Assembly: GCF_013299175.1 (NCBI RefSeq)
Contig: NZ_JAAFKF010000033.1
Span: forward strand, 1 to 36,914
DNA: 36,914 bases
Reading direction: 5' to 3'
From: Sphaerotilus sp.
Lineage (GTDB): Bacteria > Pseudomonadota > Gammaproteobacteria > Burkholderiales > Burkholderiaceae_C
Part shown: positions 2,228 through 22,542 of the stretch, piece by piece
Layout: every line of letters starts with the position of its first letter
Numbering within the stretch: position 1 is the stretch's first letter
The notes under the pieces: generated by a model
Databases searched by the model: none
The model's input: the letters and a program-made list of their open reading frames with translations, nothing else
What the model was told of the DNA's origin: nothing
Translations under genes and position numbers: made by a program

Positions 2228-4705
2228 ATGGCCCGTCATCACAACGAAGAAGAAACCAGGTTCTGGCGCATCGATCCGGTGTTGCGCGTCAAGGGCTACG
2301 ACGCCTCCTGGAAGCTGCGGCTGGAAACCCCCGCGCCGGTCGAGCCTTCGACCGATGACCTGAAGGGCCGACGCCGCTCCGGCAAGGGCCGCACCGACTA
2401 CTTGTTGTGCATCCACCCTCCCGGCGCGCCTCTGCCGCTGCCGGTCGGCGTGATTGAAGCCAAGGCCGAGAACGCCGACCCGCTCAAGGGGATGCAGCAG
2501 GCCAAGGGCTACTACAGCGGCACGGCAGCCCGCCACACGGTGCGCTATGTGTTCAGCACCAACGGCCACCGCTACGCCGAGTTCGACCGCACCACGCAGC
2601 AGCCCGGCGACGTGCGCCCGCTCGACGAGTTCCCGACCCATGGCGAGCTGACCGACCGCTATGTGCGGGACAGCGGCGTTGATCTGGCTTCGCCCGGCGC
2701 TGCCATCCTGTTCCAGCCCGACAGCCCCGCCTTCGACCGGCCGCGCTACTACCAGGACGCCGCGATCCGGTCTGCGTTCGAGAAGATCCTGCGCAGCGAG
2801 CAGGCGGGCGAGCCGGCGCGGGTGCTGATGAGCCTCGCCACCGGGGCGGGCAAGACGGTGATCGCCGCGAACCTGCTGTGGCGGCTGCACGAGGCCGGGC
2901 GGTTGGCCAAGCCGGCGCTGTTCCTGTGCGACCGCGACGAGTTGCGCGAGCAGGCGATGGACAAGCTCGGCCGGGCGTTTCCGAAGGGCAGCGTGCGGGC
3001 GGTGCGCACCGAGCAGGGCGACAACGCCGCCCGCAACGCCCGCGTCCACATCGCCACCTACCAGACGCTCGGCATCGACGGCGAGCCGGGCAACGACGGC
3101 GCGCCGGGGGCCGACAGCTTCCTGAGCCGCCACTACGGCGAGAACGCCTTTTCGGTCATCGTCATCGACGAGTGCCACCGCTCGGCCTGGGGGCGCTGGT
3201 CGGAGGTGCTGCGGCGCAATCCGCAGGCGATCCAGATCGGCCTGACCGCCACGCCGCGCCAGTTGCGGGCACCGCGTCAGCACGGGCCGCAGGCGCCGGC
3301 CATTGCCGACGCCACGGCCGAGGACGAGCGCATCACCGCGAACAACCTCGCCTATTTCGGGGCGCCGGTCTACGAGTACACGCTGATCCAGGCGCAGGAG
3401 GATGGCTACCTCTCGGCCTGCGAGATCGTGCGGCTGAAACCTTCGATCGACGGACGCATCTTCACCCGCGAGGAGATCGAGGCGATCGGCGTGACCGACG
3501 TGCGCACCGGGCAGACGCTGCCGATCGAGGAACTCCAGGCCCAGTACGGCGCACGCCAGTTCGACGACGACCTGATCCTGCCCGAGCGCATCGAGGCGAT
3601 GTGTGCCGACCTGTTTGCGCGGCTGTGTGCCTGCGGCGGGCCGGAGCAGAAGGCCATCATCTTCTGCACCCGTGACCTGCACGCCGACCGCGTGGCCCTG
3701 CAGATGCAGCGGCTGTACGCCGACTGGTGCGCGCAGCAGGGGCGGGCGCCGAAAGAGCACTACGCCTTCAAATGCACGGCCAGCGGTGGCGCCGAGTTGC
3801 TGGAGCCGATGCGCGGCTCGGGCGAGCGGTGTTTCATCGCCTGCACGGTCGATCTGCTGGCGACCGGGGTGGACATCGAGCGGCTCAACGCGGTGGTGTT
3901 CTTCCGCTCGCTGGCGTCGGGCATCCTGTTCTATCAGATGGTCGGGCGTGGCACGCGGCTGCACGAGCCGACCCGCAAGTTCAAGTTCTGGCTCTATGAC
4001 TACACCGGCGTGACCGACCTGTTCGGCACCGAGTTCCTGACGGTGGCACGCAAGCCTCGTGTGCGTCTGGGCGGGGATGGCGATGGGGACGACGACGAGA
4101 CAGACGACGACCGCAATGGGCCGCCGCTGCCTGAACTGCGCACGGAAGAAGGGATCACGGTCGATCAGGTCGGGCGTTTCATCCTGCAAGCGCGTGAGGT
4201 GGACGGCGTGATGCGTGACGTGAAGGTGCCGCTGGACGAGTACCGACAGGGCATGGTCGAGCGGGTGCTGAAGGAGGCGGCGACGCTGCAGGAGTTCCGT
4301 GGCCTGTGGGTCGAGGCACGGCGGCGGCGGGCGCTGATCGACCACCTGCTGGGGGCGCATTACTCGCCCGAGACGGTGCGCGAACTGACCGGCATGAAGG
4401 CGTTCGACACCTTCGACCTGTTCGCCCACCACGGCTACCGGGCGCCGGCACTGCAGCAGACCGAGCGGGCGCAGGCGTTCCTCAGTGCGCAGGCACCGTG
4501 GTTCGCGTCGATGGACGAAAAGTCCGCGATCGTGCTGCGCGGCTTCGGCCACCAGTTCGCGGCGGGCGGCACGCTGGCGCTGGAGTCGTCCGAGCTGTGG
4601 AACGTCCCGGAAATCAAGCGCGCTGGCGGCTTGGCGGCGCTGAAGCCGCTGGGGCGGGCGGCGGAGGTGGTGATGGATGTGAAGATGAGGTTGTTTGGGG
4701 TATGA
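2228..4705 (+). CDS. hsdR: Type I restriction enzyme, R (endonuclease/translocase) subunit, locus 1
   Basis: An 825-residue HsdR of the shorter EcoEI-like class. It carries the nuclease and ATP-driven DNA translocase of a type I restriction complex. The PD-(D/E)xK nuclease is visible as Asp57 in RTDY and Glu77-Ala-Lys79 in VIEAKAE. The motor shows Walker A TGAGKT, motif II DECHRS, GLTATP and late SF2 motifs around ATGVDIERL and QMVGRGTR. The ATG at 2228 is chosen because AGGGGGA lies 8 nt upstream and the RHHNEEETRFWRIDPVLR start is family-like; the frame stays open further upstream. Its stop overlaps the hsdS start by 4 nt (ATGA), so the two are probably translationally coupled. hsdM is 3.9 kb away. 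Confidence 0.95.
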   Translation: MARHHNEEETRFWRIDPVLRVKGYDASWKLRLETPAPVEPSTDDLKGRRRSGKGRTDYLLCIHPPGAPLPLPVGVIEAKAENADPLKGMQQAKGYYSGTAARHTVRYVFSTNGHRYAEFDRTTQQPGDVRPLDEFPTHGELTDRYVRDSGVDLASPGAAILFQPDSPAFDRPRYYQDAAIRSAFEKILRSEQAGEPARVLMSLATGAGKTVIAANLLWRLHEAGRLAKPALFLCDRDELREQAMDKLGRAFPKGSVRAVRTEQGDNAARNARVHIATYQTLGIDGEPGNDGAPGADSFLSRHYGENAFSVIVIDECHRSAWGRWSEVLRRNPQAIQIGLTATPRQLRAPRQHGPQAPAIADATAEDERITANNLAYFGAPVYEYTLIQAQEDGYLSACEIVRLKPSIDGRIFTREEIEAIGVTDVRTGQTLPIEELQAQYGARQFDDDLILPERIEAMCADLFARLCACGGPEQKAIIFCTRDLHADRVALQMQRLYADWCAQQGRAPKEHYAFKCTASGGAELLEPMRGSGERCFIACTVDLLATGVDIERLNAVVFFRSLASGILFYQMVGRGTRLHEPTRKFKFWLYDYTGVTDLFGTEFLTVARKPRVRLGGDGDGDDDETDDDRNGPPLPELRTEEGITVDQVGRFILQAREVDGVMRDVKVPLDEYRQGMVERVLKEAATLQEFRGLWVEARRRRALIDHLLGAHYSPETVRELTGMKAFDTFDLFAHHGYRAPALQQTERAQAFLSAQAPWFASMDEKSAIVLRGFGHQFAAGGTLALESSELWNVPEIKRAGGLAALKPLGRAAEVVMDVKMRLFGV

Positions 4706-5934
4706 GTGTGGAAATCATGAAGCTGGGTGCTGTGGCCGACATCAATCCGCGCCGAATATCGGCTGCACTCAATGACACGGATGACGTCAGCTTTGTCCCA
4801 ATGAGCGCGGTCAGCGAAGTGACCGGCACGATCGAAGCGGCAGTTGCCAAACCGTTTGGCGACGTCAAGAAGGGATACACCTGCTTTTCGGATGGAGACA
4901 TCCTGTTCGCCAAGGTGTCTCCTTGCATGCAGAACGGCAAGCACGCCATCGCATGGGATCTGATCAATGGAGTGGGTTTTGGATCGACAGAGTTTCATGT
5001 GATCCGCCCTGGGCCACTGGTCTTGGCGGAGTGGATTCATTACTTCCTGCGGCGGCAAGACACGCTGCAGGCAGCGATAAAAACCTTCAATGGCGCCGTT
5101 GGTCTCCAGCGCGTTCCATCCGATTTTCTGGAGTCGCTGGAAATTCCTGTGCCGTCCTTGGACGTTCAACGAAATCAAGTCGATCTGTTGCGGCGGCAGC
5201 TTGCGGCGGTTGAAGAGGCGCGGCAGGCGGCGCAGGCGCAGGTGAAGGACGCTGACGCGCTGAAGGCCGCGCTGTATCGATGTGCTTTTCAGGGCGTGGT
5301 GCCTGTCGCACTGCCGCTCGACTTGGAAGACGCTCCGGCGGGCTGGTGCTGGACCAAGCTGGCCGATCTGGCCCGACTGGAAAGCGGCCACACGCCGAGT
5401 CGGGCACGGCCGGATTGGTGGGGCGGGGATATTTCGTGGCTGTCGCTGACGGAAATCCGGGCGCTGGACGGGCAGTGGGTGAAGTCCACCGAGATTCGCA
5501 CCAACGAGGCGGGGATTGCCAATTCCTCGGCCCGCATCCTGCCGCGTGGCACGGTCTGCTTTTCCCGCACAGCCTCCGTCGGCTTCGTTGCACTCATGGC
5601 CGAGCCGATGGCGACCAGCCAGGACTTCGCCAACTGGGTTTGCGGCGATGATCTCGATCCTGAGTTCCTGATGTACGCCCTGATTCGTGCCCGAACCGAA
5701 TTGCGGGCACTCGCCACCGGTGCGACGCACAAGACAATCTACATGCCAATGCTGGGATCGTTTCACCTGTGCCTGCCTGACCGTGCAACGCAAGGCGCGA
5801 TCGTCCGAGCACTGAAGGCGCAACTTGCCGCCGCAGAAGAAGCGCGGCAGGCGGCGCAAGCACAGTTGGACGAGATCAAGCGGCTGCCGGGTCGGCTGCT
5901 GGCGCAGGCATTTGATTCAAACCACCCGCAGTGA
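4702..5934 (+). CDS. hsdS: Type I restriction enzyme, S (specificity) subunit, locus 1
   Basis: A 410-residue HsdS that gives the complex its DNA target. It has two target-recognition domains, roughly residues 1-160 and 205-370, each followed by a helical spacer. The two spacers are near-repeats (QLAAVEEARQAAQAQ near 166 and QLAAAEEARQAAQAQ near 374). The first recognition domain is noticeably AT-richer than the second, as expected for exchanged half-domains. It starts at the ATGA overlap with hsdR. Its last 18 bp overlap the 3' end of the convergent XRE-ImmA gene. No hsdM follows directly; the likely partner starts at 8586. Confidence 0.93.
   Translation: MSVEIMKLGAVADINPRRISAALNDTDDVSFVPMSAVSEVTGTIEAAVAKPFGDVKKGYTCFSDGDILFAKVSPCMQNGKHAIAWDLINGVGFGSTEFHVIRPGPLVLAEWIHYFLRRQDTLQAAIKTFNGAVGLQRVPSDFLESLEIPVPSLDVQRNQVDLLRRQLAAVEEARQAAQAQVKDADALKAALYRCAFQGVVPVALPLDLEDAPAGWCWTKLADLARLESGHTPSRARPDWWGGDISWLSLTEIRALDGQWVKSTEIRTNEAGIANSSARILPRGTVCFSRTASVGFVALMAEPMATSQDFANWVCGDDLDPEFLMYALIRARTELRALATGATHKTIYMPMLGSFHLCLPDRATQGAIVRALKAQLAAAEEARQAAQAQLDEIKRLPGRLLAQAFDSNHPQ
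5197..5244 (+). repeat. hsdS locus 1 internal repeat, copy 1 (spacer helix)
   Basis: Encodes the central helix of HsdS. It matches 5821-5868 at 39 of 48 bases in direct orientation, including 17 identical bases (5218-5234 with 5842-5858). Such repeats are known sites of half-domain exchange in type I specificity genes. Confidence 0.75.
5821..5868 (+). repeat. hsdS locus 1 internal repeat, copy 2 (C-terminal helix)
   Basis: The second copy of the spacer-helix repeat, in the same orientation and reading frame as 5197-5244. It encodes QLAAAEEARQAAQAQL, which packs against the central helix in HsdS proteins and fixes the distance between the two recognition domains. Confidence 0.75.
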
Positions 5935-7032
5935 TGGACGTTCCCGAGAGGGCCTATCTAAAGACTCCGCAAGGTTATTGGTCTGACTTGACAAGCCTGT
6001 AATAGCCAAGCTGAAAGTGAGGTTCTCGAGATCTTCCGAGTAAATATTGAGGTCTCGCGCAATGTCGGCCAAACGGATGCCTTCTGCTCGTAATTTTTCA
6101 AGAACTTTTGCCAATAGCTGGGAAAACTCTGGCCTCATCGGCTCAGGTTCTTGAGTCCGATACCCACTCTTAGCGATATCGATACACAAGCTGCGATATG
6201 TCCACTCCGTGAACAGGCCGAGTTGATTCATGCGGAACGCCAAGGCCGCGACTGATACACCCCAAGTTTTTTTTAATTCCATAAGTGTTTTTATGGAAAC
6301 AAATCTTGGTTTGGAGGCAATGATATTGTTGCTTGGCATCAAAAATGCCGAGGCAAAGGCTTGAGCATCTTTTTCCATTTTTTGAGTATGCTCACCGCCG
6401 TGCAGCATGGAATGCCTGTCGCACACCAAATGCTTTAACTCATGTGCGGCATCAAATCGACTATGCTCAGCAGACTTGAAGGTATTCAAGAACACAAAAG
6501 GCTTGCCACCATTCCATACACTGTAGGCATCGACTTCCTTGGCATCAATGGCGAGAGAGAAGACCCGGATACCCTTGGATTCGAGTAGATGAATTATGTT
6601 TTGAATGGGGGATTCCCCAAGGCCCCAAATCCTGCGTAATGTCTCGGCAGCGATTTCTGGAGGAAGATCACTCAAGTCTGGCAAATCAGCAGTCGGCAAA
6701 CTAAACCGCTCTTCCATCCACTCATTAAACAGAAATGCGATGGAGCCTGCGGTTAATGCGCTATTTTTCAGTGCGCCGGACATTTTCGACATGGAGCGGA
6801 AGCTCGCTGCGTGATCACCTATGATTGGTAAATCATCGCCATAAAAGAATACCACAGGAAATTTGAGTAGTTCGGCAATTTTTTCTAGATTTGCCGGTCC
6901 GGGAGAATACTCCCCCGACTCGTACCCTTGAATCGCCCGACTATCGACCCCCAGAGCTTTAGCCAGTCGGGTTTTGGTCCATTGGCGCCTTACTCTTGAA
7001 AATTCAATTCTCTTGGGGTTTACGATAGTCAT
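5917..7032 (-). CDS. XRE-type helix-turn-helix protein fused to an ImmA/IrrE metallopeptidase
   Basis: A 371-residue fusion. Residues 8-62 form an XRE helix-turn-helix (TKTRLAKALGVDSRAIQGYESG). The centre is an ImmA/IrrE (DUF955) zinc peptidase with H197-ELK-H201 and a likely third ligand Glu220 in EKDAQAFASAFLMP. Such proteins sense stress and cleave a partner repressor or regulate their own operon (family knowledge). The ATG at 7032 has an upstream AAAGGTGAC, 13 nt after the stop of the 225-residue gene, so the two form an operon. The DNA is clearly AT-richer than the flanking hsd genes and lies on the opposite strand, which points to a separate acquisition. Its 3' end overlaps hsdS by 18 bp. 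Confidence 0.9.
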   Translation of the reverse strand: MTIVNPKRIEFSRVRRQWTKTRLAKALGVDSRAIQGYESGEYSPGPANLEKIAELLKFPVVFFYGDDLPIIGDHAASFRSMSKMSGALKNSALTAGSIAFLFNEWMEERFSLPTADLPDLSDLPPEIAAETLRRIWGLGESPIQNIIHLLESKGIRVFSLAIDAKEVDAYSVWNGGKPFVFLNTFKSAEHSRFDAAHELKHLVCDRHSMLHGGEHTQKMEKDAQAFASAFLMPSNNIIASKPRFVSIKTLMELKKTWGVSVAALAFRMNQLGLFTEWTYRSLCIDIAKSGYRTQEPEPMRPEFSQLLAKVLEKLRAEGIRLADIARDLNIYSEDLENLTFSLAITGLSSQTNNLAESLDRPSRERPSLRVV

Positions 7033-7045
7033 GTGTCACCTTTAT

Positions 7046-7723
7046 TTATCCTGTCTTGCGCTCCACGGATACATCGATCGGCGCTTGCGGCACGTCTGCG
7101 ATATTAACATTAACCGGCCCATCAGACAAGGTTTCAAGTATTATTCTGTCGCTCCAAGCAATAATTTTTTTGCCTTTGAATGCGGATGGGCGAGACAGCT
7201 CTGCACGAATGGTCACGCCACCTTGTTGTTCATCCACATGATAAAGAAAAACCCATATTTGAGTGCCAGAAGGCGGGCGTTTTAATTCGTGCAATGCGCG
7301 TGATTCAAACAAATCGTACTGATTGTTCTGCTGTATGGCTGCATCGAGAACAGGGCCTTTGTCGGCTTGATTCTTCGGTTGACCATGCTTTTTTCCTGTG
7401 TCTTTGCATCCAGTCATCATCAGGATGGCAATCGACTTGTCAGGAGACACAATCATTGGGCAGTTGTTGTTATCTTTTGAAAGCCATGCTCTGAGCGTCA
7501 GAATGGTTCTGAGCGCATGGACCAAGCTGTGCCAATGCAGAGTGCCGGCAGCGGTCGGGGCATGGAGTCGCGTGACTTCTTTGCGTGCTCGAAGCCCGGA
7601 CCCACTGGCCTCCAGGAAGATCAACTGATCAAGGGCTGGGTCTAACGCCCAGAGGCGGGCCTGAGCCTCGGAGGGATCACTGATGACTTGAGCCGGGCGC
7701 GGAGAGGGTTCTATGTCGAACAA
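7046..7723 (-). CDS. Unrecognised 225-residue protein, operon partner of XRE-ImmA
   Basis: I do not recognise a family. The protein has no signal peptide and no convincing membrane segment. An N-terminal half containing WALDPALDQLIFLEASGSG and HSLVHALRTILTLRAWL looks helical; a Lys/Gln-rich linker follows (around 110-125), then a probably beta-rich C-terminus (GTQIWVFLYHVDEQ, VTIRAELSRP, KKIIAWSDRIILETL). The in-frame start is TTG 7723 with a weak GGA upstream; no ATG is available. It precedes XRE-ImmA by 13 nt and shares its low GC. By analogy with other XRE-ImmA pairs it could be the effector or the proteolytic target, but nothing in the sequence proves this. Confidence 0.7.
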   Translation of the reverse strand: MFDIEPSPRPAQVISDPSEAQARLWALDPALDQLIFLEASGSGLRARKEVTRLHAPTAAGTLHWHSLVHALRTILTLRAWLSKDNNNCPMIVSPDKSIAILMMTGCKDTGKKHGQPKNQADKGPVLDAAIQQNNQYDLFESRALHELKRPPSGTQIWVFLYHVDEQQGGVTIRAELSRPSAFKGKKIIAWSDRIILETLSDGPVNVNIADVPQAPIDVSVERKTG

Positions 7724-7800
7724 GATCGTTCCAGAAGTGTACGAACTTCCGATTGTGCCACCTCAACATGAGGAATGAAAAGCGGAAGTTGTGCTGGCAT
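7711..7800 (-). CDS. Possible 29-residue leader peptide, or displaced N-terminus of the 225-residue protein
   Basis: A short frame starting ATG at 7800 (MPAQLPLFIPHVEVAQSEVR...) that ends 13 nt inside the 225-residue gene in another frame. It could be a leader coupled to the TTG start at 7723. Alternatively it is the true N-terminus separated by a frameshift, because the 225-residue frame is open for 13 codons before its TTG. It has no strong ribosome-binding site. Low confidence. Confidence 0.25.
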   Translation of the reverse strand: MPAQLPLFIPHVEVAQSEVRTLLERSCST

Positions 7801-7812
7801 GCTTTGACGCTT

Positions 7813-7836
7813 CACCGGTGCGAGAACGCATCGGTG
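7813..7836. promoter_or_regulatory. Inverted repeat, candidate operator upstream of the XRE-ImmA operon
   Basis: CACCGGTGCG (7813-7822), spacer AGAA, CGCATCGGTG (7827-7836). The arms match at 9 of 10 positions, the tenth being a G-T pair. It lies about 90 bp upstream of the TTG start of the XRE-ImmA operon and about 117 bp before the divergent MNT gene, a position suited to an XRE operator serving both. A role in RNA folding is also possible. Confidence 0.4.
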
Positions 7837-7952
7837 CTGCCTGTCAGGACTGGCGATGCGACTGCATGACGCAGGTCCATCCACGGCTGCTGCGCCTCTA
7901 GCGTCTAGTGAGGCAAACTTGCCGACAAATGACAGATCGCTCTGGAGCCTTG

Positions 7953-8261
7953 ATGACCACTCACACACCGATGACCTGTTTGTCGAATGGTGAACTGGCA
8001 CCCATCTGCCAGCGCCACGGCATCCACCGGCTGTCCGTGTTCGGCTCGCGCTTGAAGGGCACGGCCCGTCCCGACAGTGACCTGGATTTGCTGGTTGAGT
8101 TCGAGCCAGGGCGAGTCCCCGGTCTGATCGGCTTGAGCGCCATTGAAATCGAGCTGACCGAGGCACTCGGCATCAAGGTGGATCTGCGCACGGCGCAGGA
8201 ACTGAGCCGCTACTTCCGCGACGACGTGCTGCGCTCTGTACAGGTGGCCTATGCCGCCTGA
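7953..8261 (+). CDS. MNT-family nucleotidyltransferase (MntA-like)
   Basis: A 102-residue minimal nucleotidyltransferase. The signature GSR (31-33) followed by D43-L-D45 and a third acidic residue Asp77 (KVDLRT) is complete, so catalysis is plausible. In type VII toxin-antitoxin pairs, MntA adds AMP groups to a HEPN toxin (HepT). Here no HEPN gene follows; the next frame is an antitoxin-like hybrid. ATG 7953 is chosen for GGAG at 7944-7947, 5 nt upstream; the frame extends to 7908 without a better site. It overlaps the next gene by 11 nt, so the two are coupled. It sits inside the hsd locus and is transcribed toward hsdM. Confidence 0.85.
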   Translation: MTTHTPMTCLSNGELAPICQRHGIHRLSVFGSRLKGTARPDSDLDLLVEFEPGRVPGLIGLSAIEIELTEALGIKVDLRTAQELSRYFRDDVLRSVQVAYAA

Positions 8262-8544
8262 AGACCGCAACCGCTCGCACGACGAAGCCGTCGTGGAACT
8301 GCTCAAGGCAGACCCAGCCTTGGCAGACGAGTACCTCGCCGTCGCGCAGGAAGAGGCCGAAGAACCGGGCGGGCCTGCCGCGCTGTCGGCTGCCTTGCGC
8401 CACGTCGCCGAGGCCCAGAAGACACCCAACGCCGAAACCCTCGCCGCGATGGAAGAATCCCGCACCATCCTGGCCAGCCGCCGAGCGCGTTTCGCCTCAG
8501 CCGAGGCGCTGTTCGCCAGCCTCGAACAAGGGCGCGACGAATAA
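8251..8544 (+). CDS. Chimeric antitoxin-like protein (COG3636-type N-terminus, RelB-type tail)
   Basis: A 97-residue acidic protein. Residues 9-55 (SHDEAVVELLKADPALADEYLA...EEPGGPAALSAALRHVAEA) read like the N-terminus of HigA2/COG3636 addiction-module antidotes, where a helix-turn-helix normally follows. Here that part is absent. It is replaced by residues 58-93 (TPNAETLAAMEESR...RARFASAEALFASLE), typical of the toxin-wrapping tail of RelB/DinJ-like antitoxins. The gene overlaps the MNT gene by 11 nt and is followed by hsdM after 41 bp. No RelE/HigB toxin gene is adjacent, so it is either an orphan or serves another partner. The family assignment is from pattern recognition only. Confidence 0.65.
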   Translation: MPPEDRNRSHDEAVVELLKADPALADEYLAVAQEEAEEPGGPAALSAALRHVAEAQKTPNAETLAAMEESRTILASRRARFASAEALFASLEQGRDE

Positions 8545-8585
8545 CCCGCGCCTCGCACCCCATCGCATTCAGAACAACAGAACCC

Positions 8586-10490
8586 ATGGCCGAACCCCGC
8601 CCGAAATCCATCGCCTCGACACCATCCCTCTCCAGCACGGTCAAGTCGATCTGCGACATCCTGCGTCGCTCGAACTGCGCCAGCGCACTGCAATACGTGC
8701 CGGAACTGACCTGGATACTGTTCCTGCGCATCCTCGACGCACAGGAAACCCGTGCCCGCGAGGAGGCCGAGGCCATCGGCGACGACTTCACGCCTGCCCT
8801 GCCTGCACCGTTTCGCTGGCAGGACTGGGCCGCCCCGTGCAATGTCGAGCAGGAGGCCCGCACGCCTGAAGGCCAACTCGTCGGATGGAAGCGGCAGGCA
8901 CTGGGTTCGCGCATCGGTACGCTGATCGAGTTCGTCAATAAGGAACTGCTGCCCTACCTACACGGCCTGGACACCTTGCCCGACGGCCGCCCGAATCCAT
9001 CCGCCACCCCGAAACAGCGCGTCATCGGTCGCATCATGACCGCGGTCGAGCGCGTGCGTGTCGATACGGAAGCCGACTTCATCGACATCCTCGACCGCCT
9101 CCACACCATCCAGATTGACCACATCGACGACACACACGTCTTCACGCTGTCGCAGGTGTACGAAGACCTGCTGCTGAAGATGGGCGAGAAGAACTCCGAC
9201 GGCGGCCAGTTCTTCACACCCCGCGAAGTGGTGCGCGCCATGGTCGCCACGCTGAACCCGGTCTTCGGCGAGACCGTCTACGACCCGTGCTGCGGCACGG
9301 GCGGCTTCCTGGCGCAGTCCTACGAATGGATGAGCCGGCGCATGGGCGATCAAGCCACCGGCACCGACCTGGAGCGGCTCAAGCACGACACCTTCTTCGG
9401 CCGCGAGAAGGAAAACCTCGTCTTCCCGATCGCGCTGGCGAACCTCGTGCTGCACGGCATCGACCAGCCCAATCTCTGGCACGGCAACACGCTGGCCGAC
9501 CAGCCGACCTACGCCGGCTTGTTCGAACAGGCTCCGCCCACCTTCGACGTGATCCTGACCAACCCGCCCTTCGGCGGCAAGGAGAGCAGCGAAACCCAGG
9601 ACCGCTACAGCTTCCACTCCAGCGCGACGCAGGTGCTGTTCCTGCAACACCTGCTGGACGAGCTGGCGCTGCCGAGCGATGAGCAGCCGGGCGGGCGCTG
9701 CGGTGTCGTGCTCGACGAAGGCTTGCTGTTCCGCACCAACGAATCGGCTTTTGTGGAAACCAAGCGCAGGTTGCTGGACGAATGCGAGCTGTGGTGCATC
9801 GTCAGCCTGCCGGGCGGCGTGTTCTCGACGGCAGGGGCGGGCGTCAAGACCAACCTGCTGTTCTTCACCAAGGGCCGCCCGACCGAGCGCACCTGGTACT
9901 ACGACCTCTCGCACGTCAAGATGGGCAAGAAGTCGCCGATGACGCTGGCGCACTTCGGCTGGAACCCGGATTTCACGCTGATCACCGACGACGCGGCGCT
10001 GCCGGCTTCGCTGGTCGAGGACTGGCACACCCGCGAAGGCAACGAAGGCCGCTTGTTCCCGACCTTCGCCCGTCTGCTCGCGTGGCGTGGTACGCCCCAG
10101 GCCGACAGCGATGTCTCGTGGACGATCGACGTTGCCGCCCGCCGTGCCCAGGCCCGTGCCGACATGGCGCCACACGAGGCCGAGGCTGTCCGCTGTCGTG
10201 AGGAGGCCGTGACACTCAGGGAGCAGATGGCGGCACTGAAGAAGGCCAAGGCGTCCGAAGCCGCGTGGCTCGCAGTTCAGCAGCAGTGGCAGGCGATGGA
10301 CAAGGCTGCACGGGATGCACAGGCCCGCGCCGCAGCGATCGACGCGGCGGCGTTTGACCTGAAGGCGGTCAATCCGAATGCCCGCGTCACGCAGGACACC
10401 CGTTCGCCATCCGAGATCCTGGCGGCGATCACCGCACATGGGCGGGACATGGTGGCCGCACTGGACCGATTGCGCCGACTGGTGGCTTGA
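8586..10490 (+). CDS. hsdM: Type I restriction enzyme, M (DNA N6-adenine methyltransferase) subunit, locus 1
   Basis: A 634-residue HsdM that methylates adenine at the site chosen by HsdS, using S-adenosylmethionine. The N-terminal helical HsdM domain covers about 1-190. The methyltransferase domain has the SAM motif DPCCGTGGF (233-241) and catalytic N326-P-P-F329. The C-terminal 130 residues are Ala/Glu-rich and probably coiled-coil. ATG 8586 follows the antitoxin-like gene by 41 bp without a strong ribosome-binding site. The order R-S-...-M is unusual: hsdM is the last gene and is separated from hsdS by four genes, two on the other strand, so it likely needs its own promoter or the MNT transcript. 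Confidence 0.95.
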   Translation: MAEPRPKSIASTPSLSSTVKSICDILRRSNCASALQYVPELTWILFLRILDAQETRAREEAEAIGDDFTPALPAPFRWQDWAAPCNVEQEARTPEGQLVGWKRQALGSRIGTLIEFVNKELLPYLHGLDTLPDGRPNPSATPKQRVIGRIMTAVERVRVDTEADFIDILDRLHTIQIDHIDDTHVFTLSQVYEDLLLKMGEKNSDGGQFFTPREVVRAMVATLNPVFGETVYDPCCGTGGFLAQSYEWMSRRMGDQATGTDLERLKHDTFFGREKENLVFPIALANLVLHGIDQPNLWHGNTLADQPTYAGLFEQAPPTFDVILTNPPFGGKESSETQDRYSFHSSATQVLFLQHLLDELALPSDEQPGGRCGVVLDEGLLFRTNESAFVETKRRLLDECELWCIVSLPGGVFSTAGAGVKTNLLFFTKGRPTERTWYYDLSHVKMGKKSPMTLAHFGWNPDFTLITDDAALPASLVEDWHTREGNEGRLFPTFARLLAWRGTPQADSDVSWTIDVAARRAQARADMAPHEAEAVRCREEAVTLREQMAALKKAKASEAAWLAVQQQWQAMDKAARDAQARAAAIDAAAFDLKAVNPNARVTQDTRSPSEILAAITAHGRDMVAALDRLRRLVA

Positions 10491-10512
10491 GCCGCTGGCT
10501 GCTCAAGCCACC
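10481..10512. terminator. Bidirectional hairpin shared by convergent hsdM and araC ends
   Basis: GGTGGCTTGAG (10481-10491) and CTCAAGCCACC (10502-10512) form a perfect 11-bp stem with a 10-nt loop. The TGA stops of hsdM (10488-10490) and of the opposing AraC gene (10503-10505) lie in the two arms, so each arm encodes one gene's end. No T tract follows on either strand, so an intrinsic terminator is possible but not certain. Confidence 0.5.
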
Positions 10513-11390
10513 GAGGCTGCCCCATCCAGTACCGCCCCCCACAGCCGGTACACCCAGAAACTCTCCTCCCCCTGCATCCGCTGGCGCAGTTCCTCCGGGC
10601 TGAAGCCGGTGACGCGGCGCGTCTCGCGGCACAGGTGCGACTGGTCCGCGAACCCGCCCAGCACCGCGACATCGGCCCAATCGACCGCTCCGCGCTGCTG
10701 CGCGGCGAGCACCTCGAAGAACACCACCTCGGTGCGGCTGATCCCTTTGAGCTGGCGCAGCGGCTGGCCGGTCCAGCGTTTGATGCGGCGCTCGAACTGC
10801 CGCAGGCTGCGCCCCGGCGCCGACGTGGCCGCCCGCAGCGCCAGCCCCTGCGTCCAGTCGTGCAGCAGCGGACTGCCCAGCACGGCGGTGGACGACGGGC
10901 GCGCAGCCTGCCAGCGCGCCTCCAGGAAGTCCTCGATCAGCGCCACACGCCGCTCGTCATCCGCCGCCCGCTGCACCGCCTCGCCCCACGCCAGCCACTC
11001 CGGCGGAAGCACCGCGTGTGCCGCCACGGTGCGGTCGATCCAGGCGCTCGGGTCGAGTCCGGTCATCGCGTGCAGCGCGTCCGGCAGCAGCATCAGCATC
11101 ATCCCGTGGCCCGGCCCGGTGTCGCGGCTGGTGGTCGGGCCGGTCTGGGGGCCGCTGAAGCGCACGGGGTCGGCCGGCATCGGCGCCAGCGTCGGGTCCA
11201 GCCATTCGCTGTGGCCTTCGAAAAACCAACTGACCGTGCAGGCCGGCGTGGCGGGGAAGTGGTTGATGCAGCGGGCTTCGGTGGGCGGCCGGTCGAGCGT
11301 GCTGCGGCTGAGCACCGCCCGAACGCACGCAGTGAGCGACAGGCGCGGCAGCCACAGGCGGGCTTCATCGGAAGGGCTGACCTCGTGCAT
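10503..11390 (-). CDS. AraC-family transcriptional regulator
   Basis: A regulator of about 295 residues from ATG 11390. The frame also opens from a TTG at 11465, but those extra residues look unrelated to the family. The N-terminal part (LTACVRAVLSRS...SWFFEGHSEWL) is a sensor-like domain. The C-terminus carries the AraC DNA-binding domain, with AVLGGFADQSHLCRETRRVTGFSPEELRQ as the second helix-turn-helix. It is divergent from the P450 gene across a 112-bp gap, which suggests that it controls that gene. The effector cannot be inferred. It is convergent with hsdM and shares a hairpin with it. Confidence 0.88.
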   Translation of the reverse strand: MHEVSPSDEARLWLPRLSLTACVRAVLSRSTLDRPPTEARCINHFPATPACTVSWFFEGHSEWLDPTLAPMPADPVRFSGPQTGPTTSRDTGPGHGMMLMLLPDALHAMTGLDPSAWIDRTVAAHAVLPPEWLAWGEAVQRAADDERRVALIEDFLEARWQAARPSSTAVLGSPLLHDWTQGLALRAATSAPGRSLRQFERRIKRWTGQPLRQLKGISRTEVVFFEVLAAQQRGAVDWADVAVLGGFADQSHLCRETRRVTGFSPEELRQRMQGEESFWVYRLWGAVLDGAASVA

Positions 11391-11502
11391 GCCGGGCAGT
11401 GTAGGGCCGCTCGTCCGGTCGATCGAGCAGGGCGCGTGATGCCCATGCCTGTCGAATTCGTTCAAGACAGCTCACCGTGGCGCGGTGCAACATCAACGCA
11501 CC

Positions 11503-12936
11503 ATGAACACCAACACCCCCTTGACGACGCCCCTCGCCGCCGTGCCGCGCCCGCCCGGTCCTCCCAGCCCGTGGTGGGGTCTGCCGCTGCTGCGCGCCCT
11601 GTCGCGGGACTACCTCGGTTTCGTGCAGCGCCTGCAGCACGCGCACGGCGACATCACCTTCATGCGCATCGGCCCGGAGTGCGCCTACGACGTGTTGTCG
11701 CCCGATGGGGTGCGGGCGGTGCTGGTGGAACAGGCCGACCACTTCATCCGCTGGGAGCGTGGCATCGAGGTGTTTGCCCAGGTCTTCGGCCAGGGGCTGC
11801 TGACCACCGAAGGTGAGCAGTGGAAGCGCCAGCACCGCCTGTTGCGCCCTGGCTTCGCGCCGCGCCGGGTGGCCGGCTACGCGGCGCTGATGGTGGACGC
11901 GGCGCGGCAGGCGCTCGACGACGCCGTGCCCCCCGGTCAGGCGAGCGCCCGCGTCGAGGTGGACGCGCTGATGACGCGGCTGACGATGGACGTGATCCTG
12001 CGCACCTTGTTCGGCAGCCGGGCGCGTGACGAAGCCCGCGAGGCGGGGGAGGCGGTGCAGGTGCTCGGTCGTCAGGCGATGCGCGAAATGTTCCTGCCGC
12101 TGACGCTGCCGGACTGGCTGCCACTGCCCGGCAAGGCGGGCAAGCGCCGGGCACTGCGCACGCTGCGCGGGCTGGTGGACCGCCACATCGACGCCCGCCT
12201 GAACGCCGCGGTCGCCGACCCCGCCACGGTGCCGACGGACGACCTGCTGGCGATGATGCTCGCCGCCCGCGACGACGAGGCCGGCGCTCCCGACGGCACG
12301 GGCGCCGGTAGCGGCCTGAGCCGGGCGGAGCTGCACGACCAGTCCATGGTGATCTTCCAGGCGGGCCATGAAACCTCGGCCACGGCGCTGCTGTGGTGGA
12401 GCCGCCTGATGGCCGAGCACCCGGAGATCGCCCGCCGCGCCCGCGACGAGGTGGACCAGGTGCTGGCCGGCCGCGACCCGACGCCGGCCGACCTGCCCCG
12501 GCTCGACTGGCTGGGCGCTACGCTCAAGGAGGCGATGCGGCTGTACCCGCCCGTTCCCGCCTTGATGAGCCGCCGGGCGGTGAAGGAGGCGCAGGTCGGC
12601 CCGTGGCGCATCCCGGCGGGCAGCCTCGTGCGCCTGACGCCGTGGGTGCTGCACCACGACCCGCGCTGGTTCCCTGAGCCAGAGGTGTTCCGCCCCGAGC
12701 GGTTCACGGCCGATGCGCCGCCGCTGCCGCGGGGCGCGTGGCTGCCGTTCGGCACGGGGCCGCGGGTGTGCATCGGGCAGCACTTCGCGATGCTGGAGAT
12801 GACGCTGATCGCGGCGATGCTGCTGCAGCGGTACACGCTGGCGGTGCCACCGGGAGACGACACGCGTCCGGCCGCCGAGCTGAACGTCACGCTGCGGCCG
12901 AAGGGTGGGCTGCGGCTGGCCTTCACTCGGCGCTGA
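11503..12936 (+). CDS. Cytochrome P450
   Basis: A 477-residue haem monooxygenase. Key motifs are the I-helix AGHET (287-291), the K-helix E343-x-x-R346 in LKEAMR, the PERF motif region (398-401) and the haem loop FGTGPRVCIG with ligand Cys423. There is no fused reductase and no ferredoxin gene adjacent, so electrons must come from proteins encoded elsewhere. No signal anchor is seen, so it should be a soluble bacterial enzyme. The ATG at 11503 is preferred over an in-frame GTG at 11485. The substrate is unknown. It ends 5 bp before the convergent M48 gene, with no terminator visible between them. Confidence 0.95.
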   Translation: MNTNTPLTTPLAAVPRPPGPPSPWWGLPLLRALSRDYLGFVQRLQHAHGDITFMRIGPECAYDVLSPDGVRAVLVEQADHFIRWERGIEVFAQVFGQGLLTTEGEQWKRQHRLLRPGFAPRRVAGYAALMVDAARQALDDAVPPGQASARVEVDALMTRLTMDVILRTLFGSRARDEAREAGEAVQVLGRQAMREMFLPLTLPDWLPLPGKAGKRRALRTLRGLVDRHIDARLNAAVADPATVPTDDLLAMMLAARDDEAGAPDGTGAGSGLSRAELHDQSMVIFQAGHETSATALLWWSRLMAEHPEIARRARDEVDQVLAGRDPTPADLPRLDWLGATLKEAMRLYPPVPALMSRRAVKEAQVGPWRIPAGSLVRLTPWVLHHDPRWFPEPEVFRPERFTADAPPLPRGAWLPFGTGPRVCIGQHFAMLEMTLIAAMLLQRYTLAVPPGDDTRPAAELNVTLRPKGGLRLAFTRR

Positions 12937-12941
12937 CCCGC

Positions 12942-13649
12942 TCACAGGTTCATGGCTGCCCCGCGTACTCGCAGCCACTCCTTGCGCGCGAGGTAATCCG
13001 GCAGGATCTTGTCCACCTCATTCCAGAAGTCCGCCGAGTGGTCGCGGTGGTGCCGGTGACACAGCTCATGGACAACGAAGTAGTCGATGATCGTGAGCGG
13101 GGCCATCAGGCACTTCCAGTGAAACTGCAGGTTGCCATTGGGCAGGCAAGACGCCCAGCGGTACCCAAGCTCCTTGATGTGCACCGACCCGGCTTGCACA
13201 CCCACCTTGTCGGCAAAGAAGGCCACCCGCCGACGCAGCCGTGGCAGGCCCTTGTCTTCGTAGAACTGCAGAAATGCCTGCCGAGCCGCTTCAGCACCGC
13301 CCTCTTGCACCAGGGAGCGCAACAGACAGAAGCGTCCATCCTTCAATTTCAGCGGTTCATCCTGGTCGTTCACCAGTTGCAGCCGGTAACTGCTGCCGAG
13401 ATACAGGAAAGACTCACCACTGACCCACTCGCGGGCGACACGGGCAGCGTTGAGTTCCTGCCAGTCGGCCAGATTCCGGTAGATCCACAGCCGCTTGCTG
13501 AAAACCGTGTCATCGACCTGCTCGGGCGTCATCCGCTGCGGCGGGCGTACCGTGATCAGGCCGTTGCGCTCGATCACGATGTCGGTGGTCTGACGCTCGG
13601 TGCCGGGCAGGAGCTGGTATTCGATGTCCTTGACACGACGAAGCTGCAT
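12942..13649 (-). CDS. M48/YgjP-type metallopeptidase at the end of the type I operon
   Basis: A 235-residue protein of the YgjP/WSS1-like group (DUF45). The zinc site is HELCH followed by RDHSADFWNEVD, near residues 190-208, as in this family. Such genes recur at the hsdR end of type I operons (family knowledge), but their role there is unknown; proteolysis of restriction subunits is one idea. Its ATG directly abuts the hsdR stop (TGAATG), so translation is presumably coupled. It is cytoplasmic, with no signal peptide. The neighbouring P450 gene is convergent. Confidence 0.88.
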   Translation of the reverse strand: MQLRRVKDIEYQLLPGTERQTTDIVIERNGLITVRPPQRMTPEQVDDTVFSKRLWIYRNLADWQELNAARVAREWVSGESFLYLGSSYRLQLVNDQDEPLKLKDGRFCLLRSLVQEGGAEAARQAFLQFYEDKGLPRLRRRVAFFADKVGVQAGSVHIKELGYRWASCLPNGNLQFHWKCLMAPLTIIDYFVVHELCHRHHRDHSADFWNEVDKILPDYLARKEWLRVRGAAMNL

Positions 13650-16600
13650 TCAGGCACTCCCGGTTCGGCCGACACGGGCCGCACGAGTCAGGTCGTCATG
13701 GCGGTTCTTGGCCAGCTTCATGATCTCGATAGCCACCCGTTCGCGATGTCGCTTGACCTCGTCGATGGCTGTCCTGGCAATCTCGTCCTTGATCCGGCCG
13801 CGCACCCGCTTCTGTTTGTCCGGGTTTTGCCAGAAGTCGATGCTGCCGATCGACTCCTGAAGAATCTCGACCGTGGTTTCCATCAGCGCCCGAAAGCCCG
13901 CCTGGTGCTCCGCCGGAATGACACCCTCCGTGAACCCGATCTGGGCAATGTGTTCATGGAAGGTCGTCGCTTCCTTGCCCATGCCCGACTCGCTTTCCTG
14001 GCGCCCGGCGCTGGCCTGGGCACGCAGTTTGGTCAGCTTGTCGGCCAGCAGATCCCACTGGCCCTGGTGCTGCTCGATCAGGGCATCCACCTTCTCCGAC
14101 AGCCGCTTGTAGAAGGCCGGGTCTTCGTCGTGATGCACCGTGCAGTGCTTGCGCAGCGCGTGCTCCATCTCGCTGGCCTTGGCTTCGCCGTTGTCACCGG
14201 CATGGGCGGCCAGCTTGTCCAGGAAGTCCTCGGCCAGCAGTTCGACCGGCGCGATCTTGGGGTTGATGCCCAGGCTGATCAGGTGCTCGTTGATCAGCGC
14301 CTTGACCTTCTCGCCCGCATTGCCCAGGTCCAGGCTGGCGTCCTTGTAACGCTGCTTCGTGACCTCCAGCAGGTAGCCGAAGCGGTGGGCGGGGACGCGG
14401 TAGGGATGGGCGGCTGCGTTCGGCAGCACGATGTCGAGGCTCATCAGGAATTTCTTCAGATGGACCTCGAAGTCGGCCCGCTGTCGTTCGTCCTTCAGCG
14501 CCTTGACGGCCTCGTGGACCACCGCCGCGTCGGCCGTCTGGTCGGGCAGCGTGCCGGTGACAAACGCCTTGATCGCCTTGACGCCCAGCGCCGTGAAGTG
14601 CTGCAGCAGGCGCTGGTAGCGTTCTTCCAGCACCGGCAGCTCTGACGTGATGTTCTTCATCCCGTCGTGCAGCTCCTGCTGCTCGTCGCTGGCGGCGTAC
14701 AGCGTCAGCGCCTCGGTCAGGTGGTGGGACAGGCCGATGTAGTCCACGATGTAGCCGCGCTGTTTGCCCTTCTTCACCCGGTTCGTGCGGGCAATGGCCT
14801 GCAGCAGAGTGTGCTCGCGCAGCTTCTTGTCGAGGTACATCACCTGTTCGATCGGGGCGTCGAAGCCGGTCAGCAGCATGTCGCAGACGATCAGGAAGGC
14901 GATGCCGGTGTGGGTCTTGTCCGGGTCGTCGAGATCGAAGCTGCGGCAGAAGTTGTCTACCGCGTTCATGCGCGCGGCCTGCTTGCGCACCTGCGTGATG
15001 ATGGCCAGCTCGTTGGTGCCGTCCGACGACACCACCACGGCGGTTTTCAGGAATTCCAGTCGCTTGATCAGATCGGCCTCTGGTGTGGGCCGCGCTTTTT
15101 CCTGGGCGATGCGCTCGGCCAGTGCGGCGTCGATGCCCGCCTGGTAGCGCACGCAGGCCAGCTTGGAGTGGCACACCACCTGCGCCTTGAACCCGTTGGG
15201 CAGGATGTTGTCCACGTAGTGCCGCACGAGGTCGCGGGCGATGGCGTGGAGGCGCTGTTCGGCTTCCAGGATGTCGCCGGTGGCCCCGTATTTCTTCCTG
15301 ATCGCCTCCAGCTCCGTCTCGCTGCGGTCGCGGAACAGGTCTTCGAAGGCGTCGTCGAACGCCTGCTTCTCGTTGAGCGCGCTGTCGGCTGTCTTGCCCT
15401 CGTAGAGGATCTGCAGCGTGGCACCGTCGTTGACCGCGTCCATCAGCCGGTAGGTGTCGATGTACTCGCCGAAGCGTTTTGACGTTTTTTTCTCGCCGTG
15501 CCGTTCGGTGACCAGGGGCGTGCCGGTGAAGGCGATGCGGGTGGCGTTGGGGAAGGCTTCGAAGAGGTTGTCACCGAGGTCGGAACTCTGGGTGCGGTGC
15601 GCCTCGTCGATCATCAGGAGGATGCGCTCGGACGTGTTGACCGTGCCGAAGGTCTTGCCCGAGGGGATGGCCAGGTAGGTGCCGAGTGCCTCGGCCACCG
15701 TGTTGCTCAGGGCCTGCTTGTGCTCCTGGAACTTGTGGACCATCGCCATGTTGATGTCGGAGCTGTCCGTGGCGAGGTGCTGGCGCAGCGTCTGGCGGCT
15801 GTCGATCACGTTGACGCGGCCCCCGATGAGTTTGGCGGTGGCGCCGAGTTGCGCTTCCAGATCCTGCCGATCGTTGACCAGGACGATCTTGTAGTCGTTC
15901 AGGTCTTTGCTGGTCCGCAGCATCCGGGCCAGGAACACCATGGTCAGCGACTTGCCCGAGCCTTGGGTGTGCCAGACGACGCCGCTGCGCGCCATCGGGG
16001 TGGTGCCGCTGCGCAGGCGCTCGACGATGCGGCCGGCGGCGCGGAACTGCTGGTAGCGGCACACCACCTTGACGCGCGGGCCGCCGTCGGTGTCCATGAA
16101 GACCGCGCTGGTGCGCAGGATGCGCAGCAGGTTCGGGCGGGTCAGCATGCCGGCGATGAGCTGCTGCTGGGCGTTCAGCGTCGCCAGGGTGTCATCAGGT
16201 TCGGGGTGGAGCGTTTTCCAGGCATAGAAATGCTCGTCGCCCGAGGTGATGGTGCCGTAGTCGGCTTCGAGGCCGCTGCTGCGGATCAGCAGGAGGTTGC
16301 TGTGGAACAGGCGGGGTTCGCCTTCCTTGAGTCCGGCTTGAGCCGTCTCGGGGCGGCGGTTCATGTAGCGCTGCAGTTGCACGAAGGCTTCCTGCATCGG
16401 ATTGGCGCAGGTGACCGAACCCTTCTTGCACTCGACGACGGCCAGCGGGATGCCGTTCACGAACAGCACGATGTCCGGGACGATGAACGCCTTGCCGCTG
16501 CCCGGCGTGTCGAGGCGGAACTGGTTGATGGCGTGGAAGTGGTTGTTCTCGGGCGTGTGGAAGTCGATCAGGCGCACGACCGGGTCGGATTCGCCGGTCA

Positions 16601-16922
16601 GTTCGTTCTGATCGACTTGCGCCTTGAACAGCAGGGCTTGCACCGCCTCGTTGGCTTCGAGCAGCGTGCGGTTGGGCTGGCGCAGCAGTTGGGTGCGCAG
16701 GTCGTCGAGTTGTCGCGGGGTCAGCCAGGGCTGGCCGTCGTCGGTGCGGTTGAGGTGGCGCACTGCCTCGTCGAAGACCGACGGCAGCAGCCACTGGCGG
16801 AAGTGTTCGCGCAGGCTGGGCGCGGCGCTTTGCGGGATGCCCGTGCCCTGGTCGATGACGGTCCAGCCCTGGGTGGCGAGCTGGTGCAGGAAGGGTTGTT
16901 CGACTTCGGTGTATTCGGACAC
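13650..16922 (-). CDS. hsdR: Type I restriction enzyme, R subunit, locus 2
   Basis: A full-length 1090-residue HsdR of the long class. The nuclease site is Asp150 (VPDIVLF) with Glu164-Cys-Lys166 (VVECKKG). The translocase has Walker A GSGKS (321-325), DEAH (439-442) and FTGTP. The C-terminal 200 residues are helical and would dock on the methyltransferase. The start is GTG 16922, 13 nt after the darG stop, with no clear Shine-Dalgarno; reinitiation from darG is plausible. It belongs to the minus-strand operon hsdM-hsdS-darT-darG-hsdR-M48. It is not close to the locus 1 HsdR, so the two systems are of different type I families. Confidence 0.96.
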   Translation of the reverse strand: MSEYTEVEQPFLHQLATQGWTVIDQGTGIPQSAAPSLREHFRQWLLPSVFDEAVRHLNRTDDGQPWLTPRQLDDLRTQLLRQPNRTLLEANEAVQALLFKAQVDQNELTGESDPVVRLIDFHTPENNHFHAINQFRLDTPGSGKAFIVPDIVLFVNGIPLAVVECKKGSVTCANPMQEAFVQLQRYMNRRPETAQAGLKEGEPRLFHSNLLLIRSSGLEADYGTITSGDEHFYAWKTLHPEPDDTLATLNAQQQLIAGMLTRPNLLRILRTSAVFMDTDGGPRVKVVCRYQQFRAAGRIVERLRSGTTPMARSGVVWHTQGSGKSLTMVFLARMLRTSKDLNDYKIVLVNDRQDLEAQLGATAKLIGGRVNVIDSRQTLRQHLATDSSDINMAMVHKFQEHKQALSNTVAEALGTYLAIPSGKTFGTVNTSERILLMIDEAHRTQSSDLGDNLFEAFPNATRIAFTGTPLVTERHGEKKTSKRFGEYIDTYRLMDAVNDGATLQILYEGKTADSALNEKQAFDDAFEDLFRDRSETELEAIRKKYGATGDILEAEQRLHAIARDLVRHYVDNILPNGFKAQVVCHSKLACVRYQAGIDAALAERIAQEKARPTPEADLIKRLEFLKTAVVVSSDGTNELAIITQVRKQAARMNAVDNFCRSFDLDDPDKTHTGIAFLIVCDMLLTGFDAPIEQVMYLDKKLREHTLLQAIARTNRVKKGKQRGYIVDYIGLSHHLTEALTLYAASDEQQELHDGMKNITSELPVLEERYQRLLQHFTALGVKAIKAFVTGTLPDQTADAAVVHEAVKALKDERQRADFEVHLKKFLMSLDIVLPNAAAHPYRVPAHRFGYLLEVTKQRYKDASLDLGNAGEKVKALINEHLISLGINPKIAPVELLAEDFLDKLAAHAGDNGEAKASEMEHALRKHCTVHHDEDPAFYKRLSEKVDALIEQHQGQWDLLADKLTKLRAQASAGRQESESGMGKEATTFHEHIAQIGFTEGVIPAEHQAGFRALMETTVEILQESIGSIDFWQNPDKQKRVRGRIKDEIARTAIDEVKRHRERVAIEIMKLAKNRHDDLTRAARVGRTGSA

Positions 16923-16935
16923 GGTGTAGCGGAGG

Positions 16936-18027
16936 TCAGTGTTCTGGAGCGCCCGCCAGATCGGGTTGGTCGCGGGTCAATCGATCCAGCGCGATCCCCA
17001 GCGCCCGGTCATCAAACAACCGGTCCTTGCGCGCTGCTGCGCCGGGGCCGCCCTGCCAGCGGCGCAGGCCCTCGCGCACGGCCGGCACGGTGGGTTCCAC
17101 GCCTTCACGGGCCAGCAGCCAATCGACCGTGGCGAGCAGTTCCATGCCGAACGGCGACTCGAACCCGTCGATCAGCCCGGCGGTGTGTTCGAGCGCCTGC
17201 GCCCACGGTTTGGCCTCGGTCTGCAGATAGGTCTGAAGGAAAGTCTGGCGCTCGTCGTCAAACCAGATCACGTCGAGCGGGTCGGCGTCGCTGATGCGCT
17301 TGTCGCAATGCAGGTAACTGCCGTCCAGGTTGTTGAGCAGGTGGTCGAGGCGGTTGGCGTAAGGACCGTACTTGTGGGCAACGAACTTCAAGTTCAGCGG
17401 ATTGTTGTCCGGAGAAAAGCGCTCGATGGCCCGTTCGGCGAACCATGCCAGCTTCTGGATTTCCAGCAGGCTGCATTCCATGCCGAGCACCCAGTAACGG
17501 CGCACCAGTTCGGCGATCAGGGCGCGGGCGGGGGTGAGTTTCTCGACGCCGCTGCGTTTGGCCACATTCTGGTATTGGCGGGTGGGCTCGAACACCAGGA
17601 TGTCCAGATCGAGATCGCCCAGGGCAGCCTCGATCTGGGTACGCACGTCGGGCCATTCCAGTCCGCCATTGCCGGCACCCAGCGGGGGAATCGCCACCGA
17701 CCGGACTTGTTGTTCGATCAGGAAGCGGCCCAGATCCTGCAACCCTTCGATCACCCATTCCATCCGTGATGGGGAACGCCAGTGCTGCTTGGTCGGAAAA
17801 TTGACGATCCAGCGGGGGCCGTCGAGTTCATGCACTTCGGTGACGAACATGCGGCCGGTCTGCACTTGGCCGGCCTTGCAGGCGGCGGCGTAGCGGCGGA
17901 AGTTGTCGTCGAAGCGATCCTTGAACATCAGGGCGATGCCCTTGCCCATCACACCCACGGTGTTGACGGTGTTGACCAGGGCTTCGGCCCGGGTTTCCAG
18001 CAGATTACCTTGTGTGAACGTGATCAT
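16936..18027 (-). CDS. darG: DarG: macrodomain DNA ADP-ribosylglycohydrolase, antitoxin of DarT
   Basis: A 363-residue antitoxin. Residues 1-155 are a macrodomain ([27 protein letters not shown] and [12 protein letters not shown]) that removes ADP-ribose from DNA bases. The remaining 200 residues form the larger C-terminal domain seen in full-length DarG, which blocks DarT by direct binding. A stretch around 184-232 ([13 protein letters not shown]..., KYGPYANRL) also recalls Panacea/DUF4065-like folds; this is my inference. ATG 18027 overlaps the darT stop (ATGA), giving coupled synthesis of toxin then antitoxin. The frame continues upstream to 18123, but that part is antisense to nothing useful and overlaps darT. 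It lies between hsdS and hsdR. Confidence 0.92.
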
Positions 18028-18677: not shown

Positions 18678-18679
18678 GC

Positions 18680-19948: not shown

Positions 19949-22490
<2,542 letters not shown>

Positions 22491-22542
22491 GGGCACAGGC
22501 AGGCGAGGGGACGGCTGAAGCAGCACGTCAGGCGCCGGATTC

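Follow-up and report, generated by a model that had tools for sequence, protein, structure and literature searches.

The stretch analysed here (the window) is 36,914 nucleotides of a Sphaerotilus sp. genome (contig NZ_JAAFKF010000033.1) and carries a type I restriction system in which a block of four open reading frames (ORFs) lies between hsdS (end 5934) and hsdM (start 8586). The block comprises two pairs on opposite strands, and the minus-strand pair, rmrT and rmrA, matches the toxin–antitoxin system RosmerTA. The locus is made up as follows.

2228..4705, plus strand: hsdR of the host type I system (Pfam ResIII, EcoEI_R_C; PADLOC REase_I; start codon read off the sequence)
4702..5934, plus strand: hsdS (Pfam Methylase_S; start codon read off the sequence)
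5917..7032, minus strand: rmrA, antitoxin/repressor of 371 aa with an XRE helix-turn-helix (HTH) and an ImmA/IrrE (M78) domain (PADLOC, Pfam)
7046..7723, minus strand: rmrT, leading gene of its pair, encoding the predicted RosmerTA toxin (225 aa; start codon TTG; PADLOC)
7908..8261, plus strand: orphan MntA-like minimal nucleotidyltransferase antitoxin (MNT), 117 aa (Pfam PF01909, PADLOC PDC-S09)
8251..8544, plus strand: chimeric ORF of 97 codons (DNA-match breakpoints, protein matches)
8586..10490, plus strand: hsdM (Pfam N6_Mtase, 3.7e-49; PADLOC MTase_I, 7.5e-276)
5187..7791, no strand: stretch in common with Sphaerotilus sulfidivorans (blastn and 100-base identity profile)

The first-pass annotation of the window had described this four-gene layout, which the ORF coordinates bear out. 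The Pfam matches were as expected (HTH_3 and Peptidase_M78, NTP_transf_2, N6_Mtase, Methylase_S), and Pfam gave no match for the 225-aa or the 97-aa protein. At their 3′ ends rmrA and hsdS share 18 bases (5917–5934), and a comparison of 3′ ends indicated that the last codons of hsdS are unlike those of genomes G008, G010 and G012, whose gaps are without RosmerTA. Thirteen bases separate rmrT from rmrA, with the toxin gene first on the same strand. The minus-strand pair had also been called AT-rich, and its GC content was indeed 46–49% in 500-base windows (6001–7500) against 60–71% in those of hsdR, hsdS and hsdM.

PADLOC identified the 225-aa protein as RmrT (PDLC03935, 8.1e-54, residues 13–223), for which neither Pfam nor NCBIfam gave a match, and the XRE-ImmA protein as RmrA (PDLC03949, 3.1e-145, residues 4–371). 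RmrA also matched Pfam PF06114 (7.8e-22) and PF01381 (1.3e-9), and its HExxH motif is HELKH at residue 197. The features of RosmerTA are present, namely an RmrA with XRE-HTH and M78 domains, a model-matched RmrT, and adjacent, same-strand genes with the toxin first and the XRE-ImmA protein second. Judged from its sequence, and with near full-length PADLOC matches, the minus-strand pair is close to certainly a full-length RosmerTA. It differs from the described system in two respects: the window copy lies inside a type I restriction operon, and its RmrT lacks any strongly hydrophobic stretch (the highest Kyte-Doolittle mean over 19 residues is 1.09), in contrast to the membrane toxin of phage Kita. 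The first-pass annotation had found the 225-residue protein unrecognised; this holds for Pfam and NCBIfam and fails for PADLOC, which names it RmrT, the predicted RosmerTA toxin. Its proposal that this protein is the toxic part is likely to be correct, given the RmrT family membership.

A search for RmrT homologues found 57 proteins at E ≤ 0.001, including the window's own, and a repeat search with a 56-row alignment found at least 107 proteins among the 7999 best candidates scored. Twenty-eight RmrT loci outside the window were opened (20 of 24 matching plasmid records, one of two phage records, and seven genome loci), with approximately 4–6 kb or more on each side unless the contig or record ended. 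An RmrA relative (38–97% identical) followed RmrT in 27 of the 28: in all 20 plasmid records, in the phage record, and in six of the seven genome loci. In 26 loci the window's own proteins detected both partners on one strand; in the 27th, G1421, where the two genes are neighbours on a single strand, only the profile and PADLOC picked up RmrT. The 225-residue protein thus recurs with XRE-ImmA, and the presence of the pair in plasmid, genome and phage records makes it more than a chance arrangement. The protein is not confined to this site; such confinement was one of two outcomes named in the first-pass annotation as refuting its module. Type I hsd genes were detected near two of the loci, G011 (the same gap) and G602; no type I genes were detected near the other 26 with the window's hsd proteins as queries, which more distant hsd families would escape.

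At G602 (locus L042, 576–8250), hsdS is followed by a Septu-like pair (a PtuA-like ATPase and a weaker PtuB/PDC-M01B-like protein), an antisense RosmerTA and a ThsB-like TIR gene; this stretch is a compact defence island next to a type I system.

S. sulfidivorans (locus L001; genome taken to be G011) holds the only other RosmerTA copy found in an hsdS–hsdM gap, in the order hsdR, hsdS, antisense rmrT-rmrA, dinJ-yafQ, hsdM. The two rmrT genes are 99.1% identical in DNA, with 6 of 678 bases different (three synonymous and three non-synonymous codons), and the rmrA genes are 95.3% identical, with 52 of 1116 bases different (41 synonymous and 11 non-synonymous codons), whereas protein identity is 79% for HsdR and 78% for HsdM. 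The common stretch (5187..7791) has 92% DNA identity overall and ends sharply near 7791. Per 100 bases, identity is 99–100 in 7001–7700, 91–99 across rmrA and 78–90 in hsdS (5301–5900), and falls to 45 just beyond 7800. Comparison of G011 with an unrelated 8-kb stretch gave, among the matches listed, three large ones of 2.1, 1.2 and 0.8 kb at 71%, 74% and 81% identity, respectively. Given the contrast between rmrT or rmrA and HsdR or HsdM, the block most likely moved recently between the window's genome and S. sulfidivorans. RmrA seems to have been kept as a protein, since most differences in rmrA are synonymous. G008 is nearer to the window (89% DNA identity over 5 kb), yet its gap holds other cargo, and no RmrT match was found in its genome (83% complete).

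Approximately 80 bases 5′ of rmrT (window 7711–7791, minus strand; S. sulfidivorans L001 6064–6144, plus strand) are conserved between both genomes. A peptide in another frame of 7711–7791 resembles the N-terminal extension of protein P0004, and these bases may be an operator or belong to a longer start of the protein.

The plus-strand pair has a different make-up. MNT matched Pfam PF01909 (8.2e-13) and PADLOC PDC-S09 (3.3e-24), fell under the model cut-off of NCBIfam MntA_antitoxin (1.7e-11), and carries the nucleotidyltransferase motif GSRLKGTARPDSDLD. No HepT match adjoins it (window 7501–9000). Of 13 related MNT loci, seven have a HepT protein that begins where MNT ends, and the other six are without such a match; the seven HepT proteins are 51–79% identical to that of G012, or are G012's own, which scores above the Pfam HepT-like cut-off and below the NCBIfam HepT cut-off. 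The window resembles the type VII system MntA-HepT in its MNT and in the first eight hepT codons, which overlap the MNT end, and differs from it in that the remainder of hepT is absent.

Those eight codons (8251–8274; MPPEDRNR, compared with MSPEDRNR in G012 HepT) form the first part of the 97-codon ORF, and at 8273–8274 the DNA matches to four MNT-hepT loci break off. The second part (~8268–8418) is the N-terminal half of an HI1420-type antidote, 76% identical to the antidote gene of G008, and the third (~8413–8541) is a RelB/DinJ C-terminal tail, 82% identical to the S. sulfidivorans dinJ; 8413–8746 matches the DinJ-tail/hsdM junction of G008 at 90%. Protein matches comprised PF21716 antidotes, PF04221 DinJ proteins and MNT-tail fusions. 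The ORF has no complete RelB domain (Pfam gave nothing even at E 5; the C-terminal tail alone aligns) and no complete PF21716 domain (no Pfam match; approximately half aligns to PF21716 proteins). The antitoxin-like hybrid of the first-pass annotation is therefore confirmed, with its breakpoints located and three source genes. An antidote-tail fusion occurs in some form in six of 79 protein hits (P0108–P0113). One of these has the hepT start, three have other starts (in one of the three the junction is shortened), and the remaining two are 23 residues shorter; the DinJ tail is fused to MNT in P0162, P0169 and G008. Since antidote-tail and MNT-tail fusions both occur, the tail has been joined to different fronts.

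These fusions can be read as products of repeated deletion in the cargo gap, and the plus-strand pair looks like the remnant of other toxin–antitoxin sets. A MntA-HepT module in the window's genome would have lost hepT, and the hepT start, the antidote front and the DinJ tail would have been fused into a 97-codon ORF that is probably non-functional. Such a case warns that hybrid "antitoxins" beside hsd genes can be recombination scars.

It is very improbable that all four genes act together as a single new defence module in which MNT and the hybrid additionally regulate RmrT. Their adjacency and the MNT motif agree with it. However, the nearly identical RosmerTA of S. sulfidivorans is accompanied by no MNT, and only an ordinary DinJ (as DinJ-YafQ) takes the hybrid's place; no MNT match was found in any of the 28 other RmrT loci; MNT relatives occupy the same gap without RosmerTA in G008, G010 and G012; and the hybrid was assembled from three unrelated genes. 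Within the 28 loci the 97-aa ORF was matched via its tail alone, and in G011 alone, so that all four genes co-occurred in none, an outcome that the first-pass annotation had itself named as speaking against its undescribed four-gene module. The module does not stand: the minus-strand pair is RosmerTA, the plus-strand pair is not part of it, and the apparent novelty is explained as a known defence pair plus debris.

The hsdS–hsdM gap was compared across genomes. HsdM searches gave loci in eight of 399 family genomes and four of 240 order genomes, the window being counted in both; G1039 was dropped because a contig end cuts its locus, leaving 10 loci, and G010 and G008, added via the MNT search and hence biased to cargo, brought the total to 12. 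Six of the 10 HsdM-derived gaps are occupied and four empty (eight and four, respectively, in all 12). In the empty gaps (G1116, G879, G124 and G190), the hsdM ATG lies two bases past the hsdS stop. The occupied gaps hold the following cargo.

Window: RosmerTA and MNT/chimera
G011: RosmerTA and DinJ-YafQ
G012: MNT-HepT
G010: MNT alone
G008: DUF6731 protein, RexB-like membrane protein, antidote and MNT-tail fusion
G932: DinD
G1020: antisense pair, one member weakly PD-T4-9_A-like
G157: RhuM-Fic protein

Different modules have entered and left the gap, which acts like a slot for cargo. Cargo derived from toxin–antitoxin genes occurs in five of the eight occupied gaps, all in the window's genus and hence not independent cases, and the count has no background control in other operon gaps. 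Loci that carry cargo and loci that do not form natural pairs in which coupling between restriction and toxin–antitoxin systems can be tested. It is possible, though rather unlikely, that an insertion-tolerant gap simply gathers toxin–antitoxin genes that persist by addiction and leave restriction unaided. This would agree with the variation of cargo between genomes, its occurrence as fusions, and the four of 12 loci without cargo. The mostly synonymous differences in rmrA point the other way, as RmrA seems to be kept, although addiction alone would keep rmrA too; so does the defence-like appearance of the cargo, with the same lack of a background control.

Two pairs in hsdS–hsdM gaps deserve mention. 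At L039 (2101–3376) a DUF6731 protein is followed by a RexB-like membrane protein (PADLOC RexB, 1.4e-8), a candidate abortive-infection pair. An antisense pair at L060 (7682–8525, minus strand), consisting of a weakly PD-T4-9_A-like protein of 201 aa and a 71-aa protein without assignment, is a candidate toxin–antitoxin pair.

The family matches, the recurrence of the pair, the identity contrast, the chimera breakpoints and the slot contents together make it quite probable that RosmerTA entered the hsdS–hsdM gap beside the remains of other toxin–antitoxin genes and provides a phage-triggered growth arrest that backs up restriction. RmrA, with its HTH and ImmA peptidase domains, would repress the rmrT-rmrA operon and keep RmrT harmless; infection would disturb RmrA, and RmrT, once freed, would stop growth. 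Within hsd, the pair would be inherited together with the restriction system and serve as backup against phages that escape restriction. RosmerTA is likely to act by phage-triggered arrest in this host, and it may be functionally tied to the restriction enzyme. In the passages cited, RosmerTA is described as having anti-phage activity and a protease-domain antitoxin, RmrA (PMC10440598), and it tends to co-occur with restriction–modification systems in Acinetobacter baumannii genomes (PMC12421847).

Several observations weigh against this interpretation. The rarity of type I hsd near RmrT (2 of 28 loci, with the window's proteins as queries) shows that RosmerTA can do without a restriction system, and G731 has a partial RmrT match (E 4e-4) without RmrA. 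Exchange was not limited to the block, as identity per 100 bases varies from 71 to 97 in hsdR and from 57 to 98 in hsdM, a mosaic pattern. Taken alone, rmrT shows no sign of purifying selection (three of six differences non-synonymous). The six clusters with an antidote-tail fusion may leave room for retained function of the chimera. Finally, the effect cannot be carried over from the phage Kita membrane toxin, which differs from the RmrT family found here and which its antitoxin, according to the cited passage, did not fully neutralise in tests (PMC10440598), nor from the Streptococcus thermophilus homologues, which PMC12322248 describes as having little efficiency against most of the phages tested.

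Another type I locus of the window has the following features.

12942–22526, minus strand: second type I locus
19941–22526, minus strand: hsdM
18680–19948, minus strand: hsdS
18024–18683, minus strand: DarT (6.7e-74)
16936–18027, minus strand: DarG (1.9e-131)
13650–16922, minus strand: hsdR
12942–13649, minus strand: 235-aa ORF with HELCH, after hsdR

DarTG sits between hsdS and hsdR, and both type I loci of the window have a toxin–antitoxin pair adjoining hsdS. In gene order the locus agrees with the RRDM island of enteropathogenic Escherichia coli (EPEC), as far as the cited part of PMC12255303 shows. We consider it unlikely that, in this lineage, type I operons maintain a docking gap by hsdS where recombination exchanges toxin–antitoxin modules that are armed to serve as a fail-safe; if a phage disabled the restriction enzyme, or the operon were lost, the resident toxin (RosmerTA, or DarTG in the other operon) would then fire. 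It is quite unlikely that RosmerTA is a PrrC-like guard of the type I enzyme, with RmrA or RmrT contacting HsdRMS and phage anti-restriction proteins triggering the toxin. Its position inside hsd, the placement of DarTG and the precedents of PrrC and DarTG2, as described in the cited passages (PMC3874165, PMC12255303), fit such a guard, but 26 of 28 RmrT loci have no nearby type I hsd detectable by the window's hsd proteins, and a near-identical pair sits in hsd systems with 21–22% divergence in HsdR and HsdM.

A backup role for RosmerTA would have parallels. Second-line genes embedded in type I operons are described, in the parts of the reports cited, for PrrC in EcoprrI (PMC3874165), TgvAB in Vibrio (PMC11411939) and DarTG2 (PMC12255303). 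PrrC and TgvAB are other proteins, and these passages describe coupling to the restriction enzyme for PrrC, not for RosmerTA. DarTG2 of the EPEC island is likewise a pair embedded next to hsdS, although of another toxin family and placed between hsdS and hsdR, and the window's second locus is the closer match; that embedding site is called a potential recombination hotspot (PMC12255303). Campylobacter hsd loci contain rlo and mlo ORFs, with mlo between hsdS and hsdM, in a passage of PMC5183652 citing Miller 2005; mlo is not described there as toxin–antitoxin, whereas the window cargo is partly named and has fusion scars. HEPN domains near restriction–modification operons are also mentioned (in the cited part of PMC3710099). 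Our literature search returned no report of RosmerTA inside hsd; its presence there adds to an already documented class of defence genes embedded in type I operons, and RosmerTA joins the toxin–antitoxin systems seen inside them.

The 235-aa ORF of the second locus had no PADLOC or NCBIfam match and was assigned by eye, from its HELCH motif, as a metallopeptidase. Between the two type I loci (10503–12936) are a 320-aa ORF that is AraC-like by eye and unmatched in NCBIfam, and a cytochrome P450-like ORF whose NCBIfam matches fall under their cut-offs.

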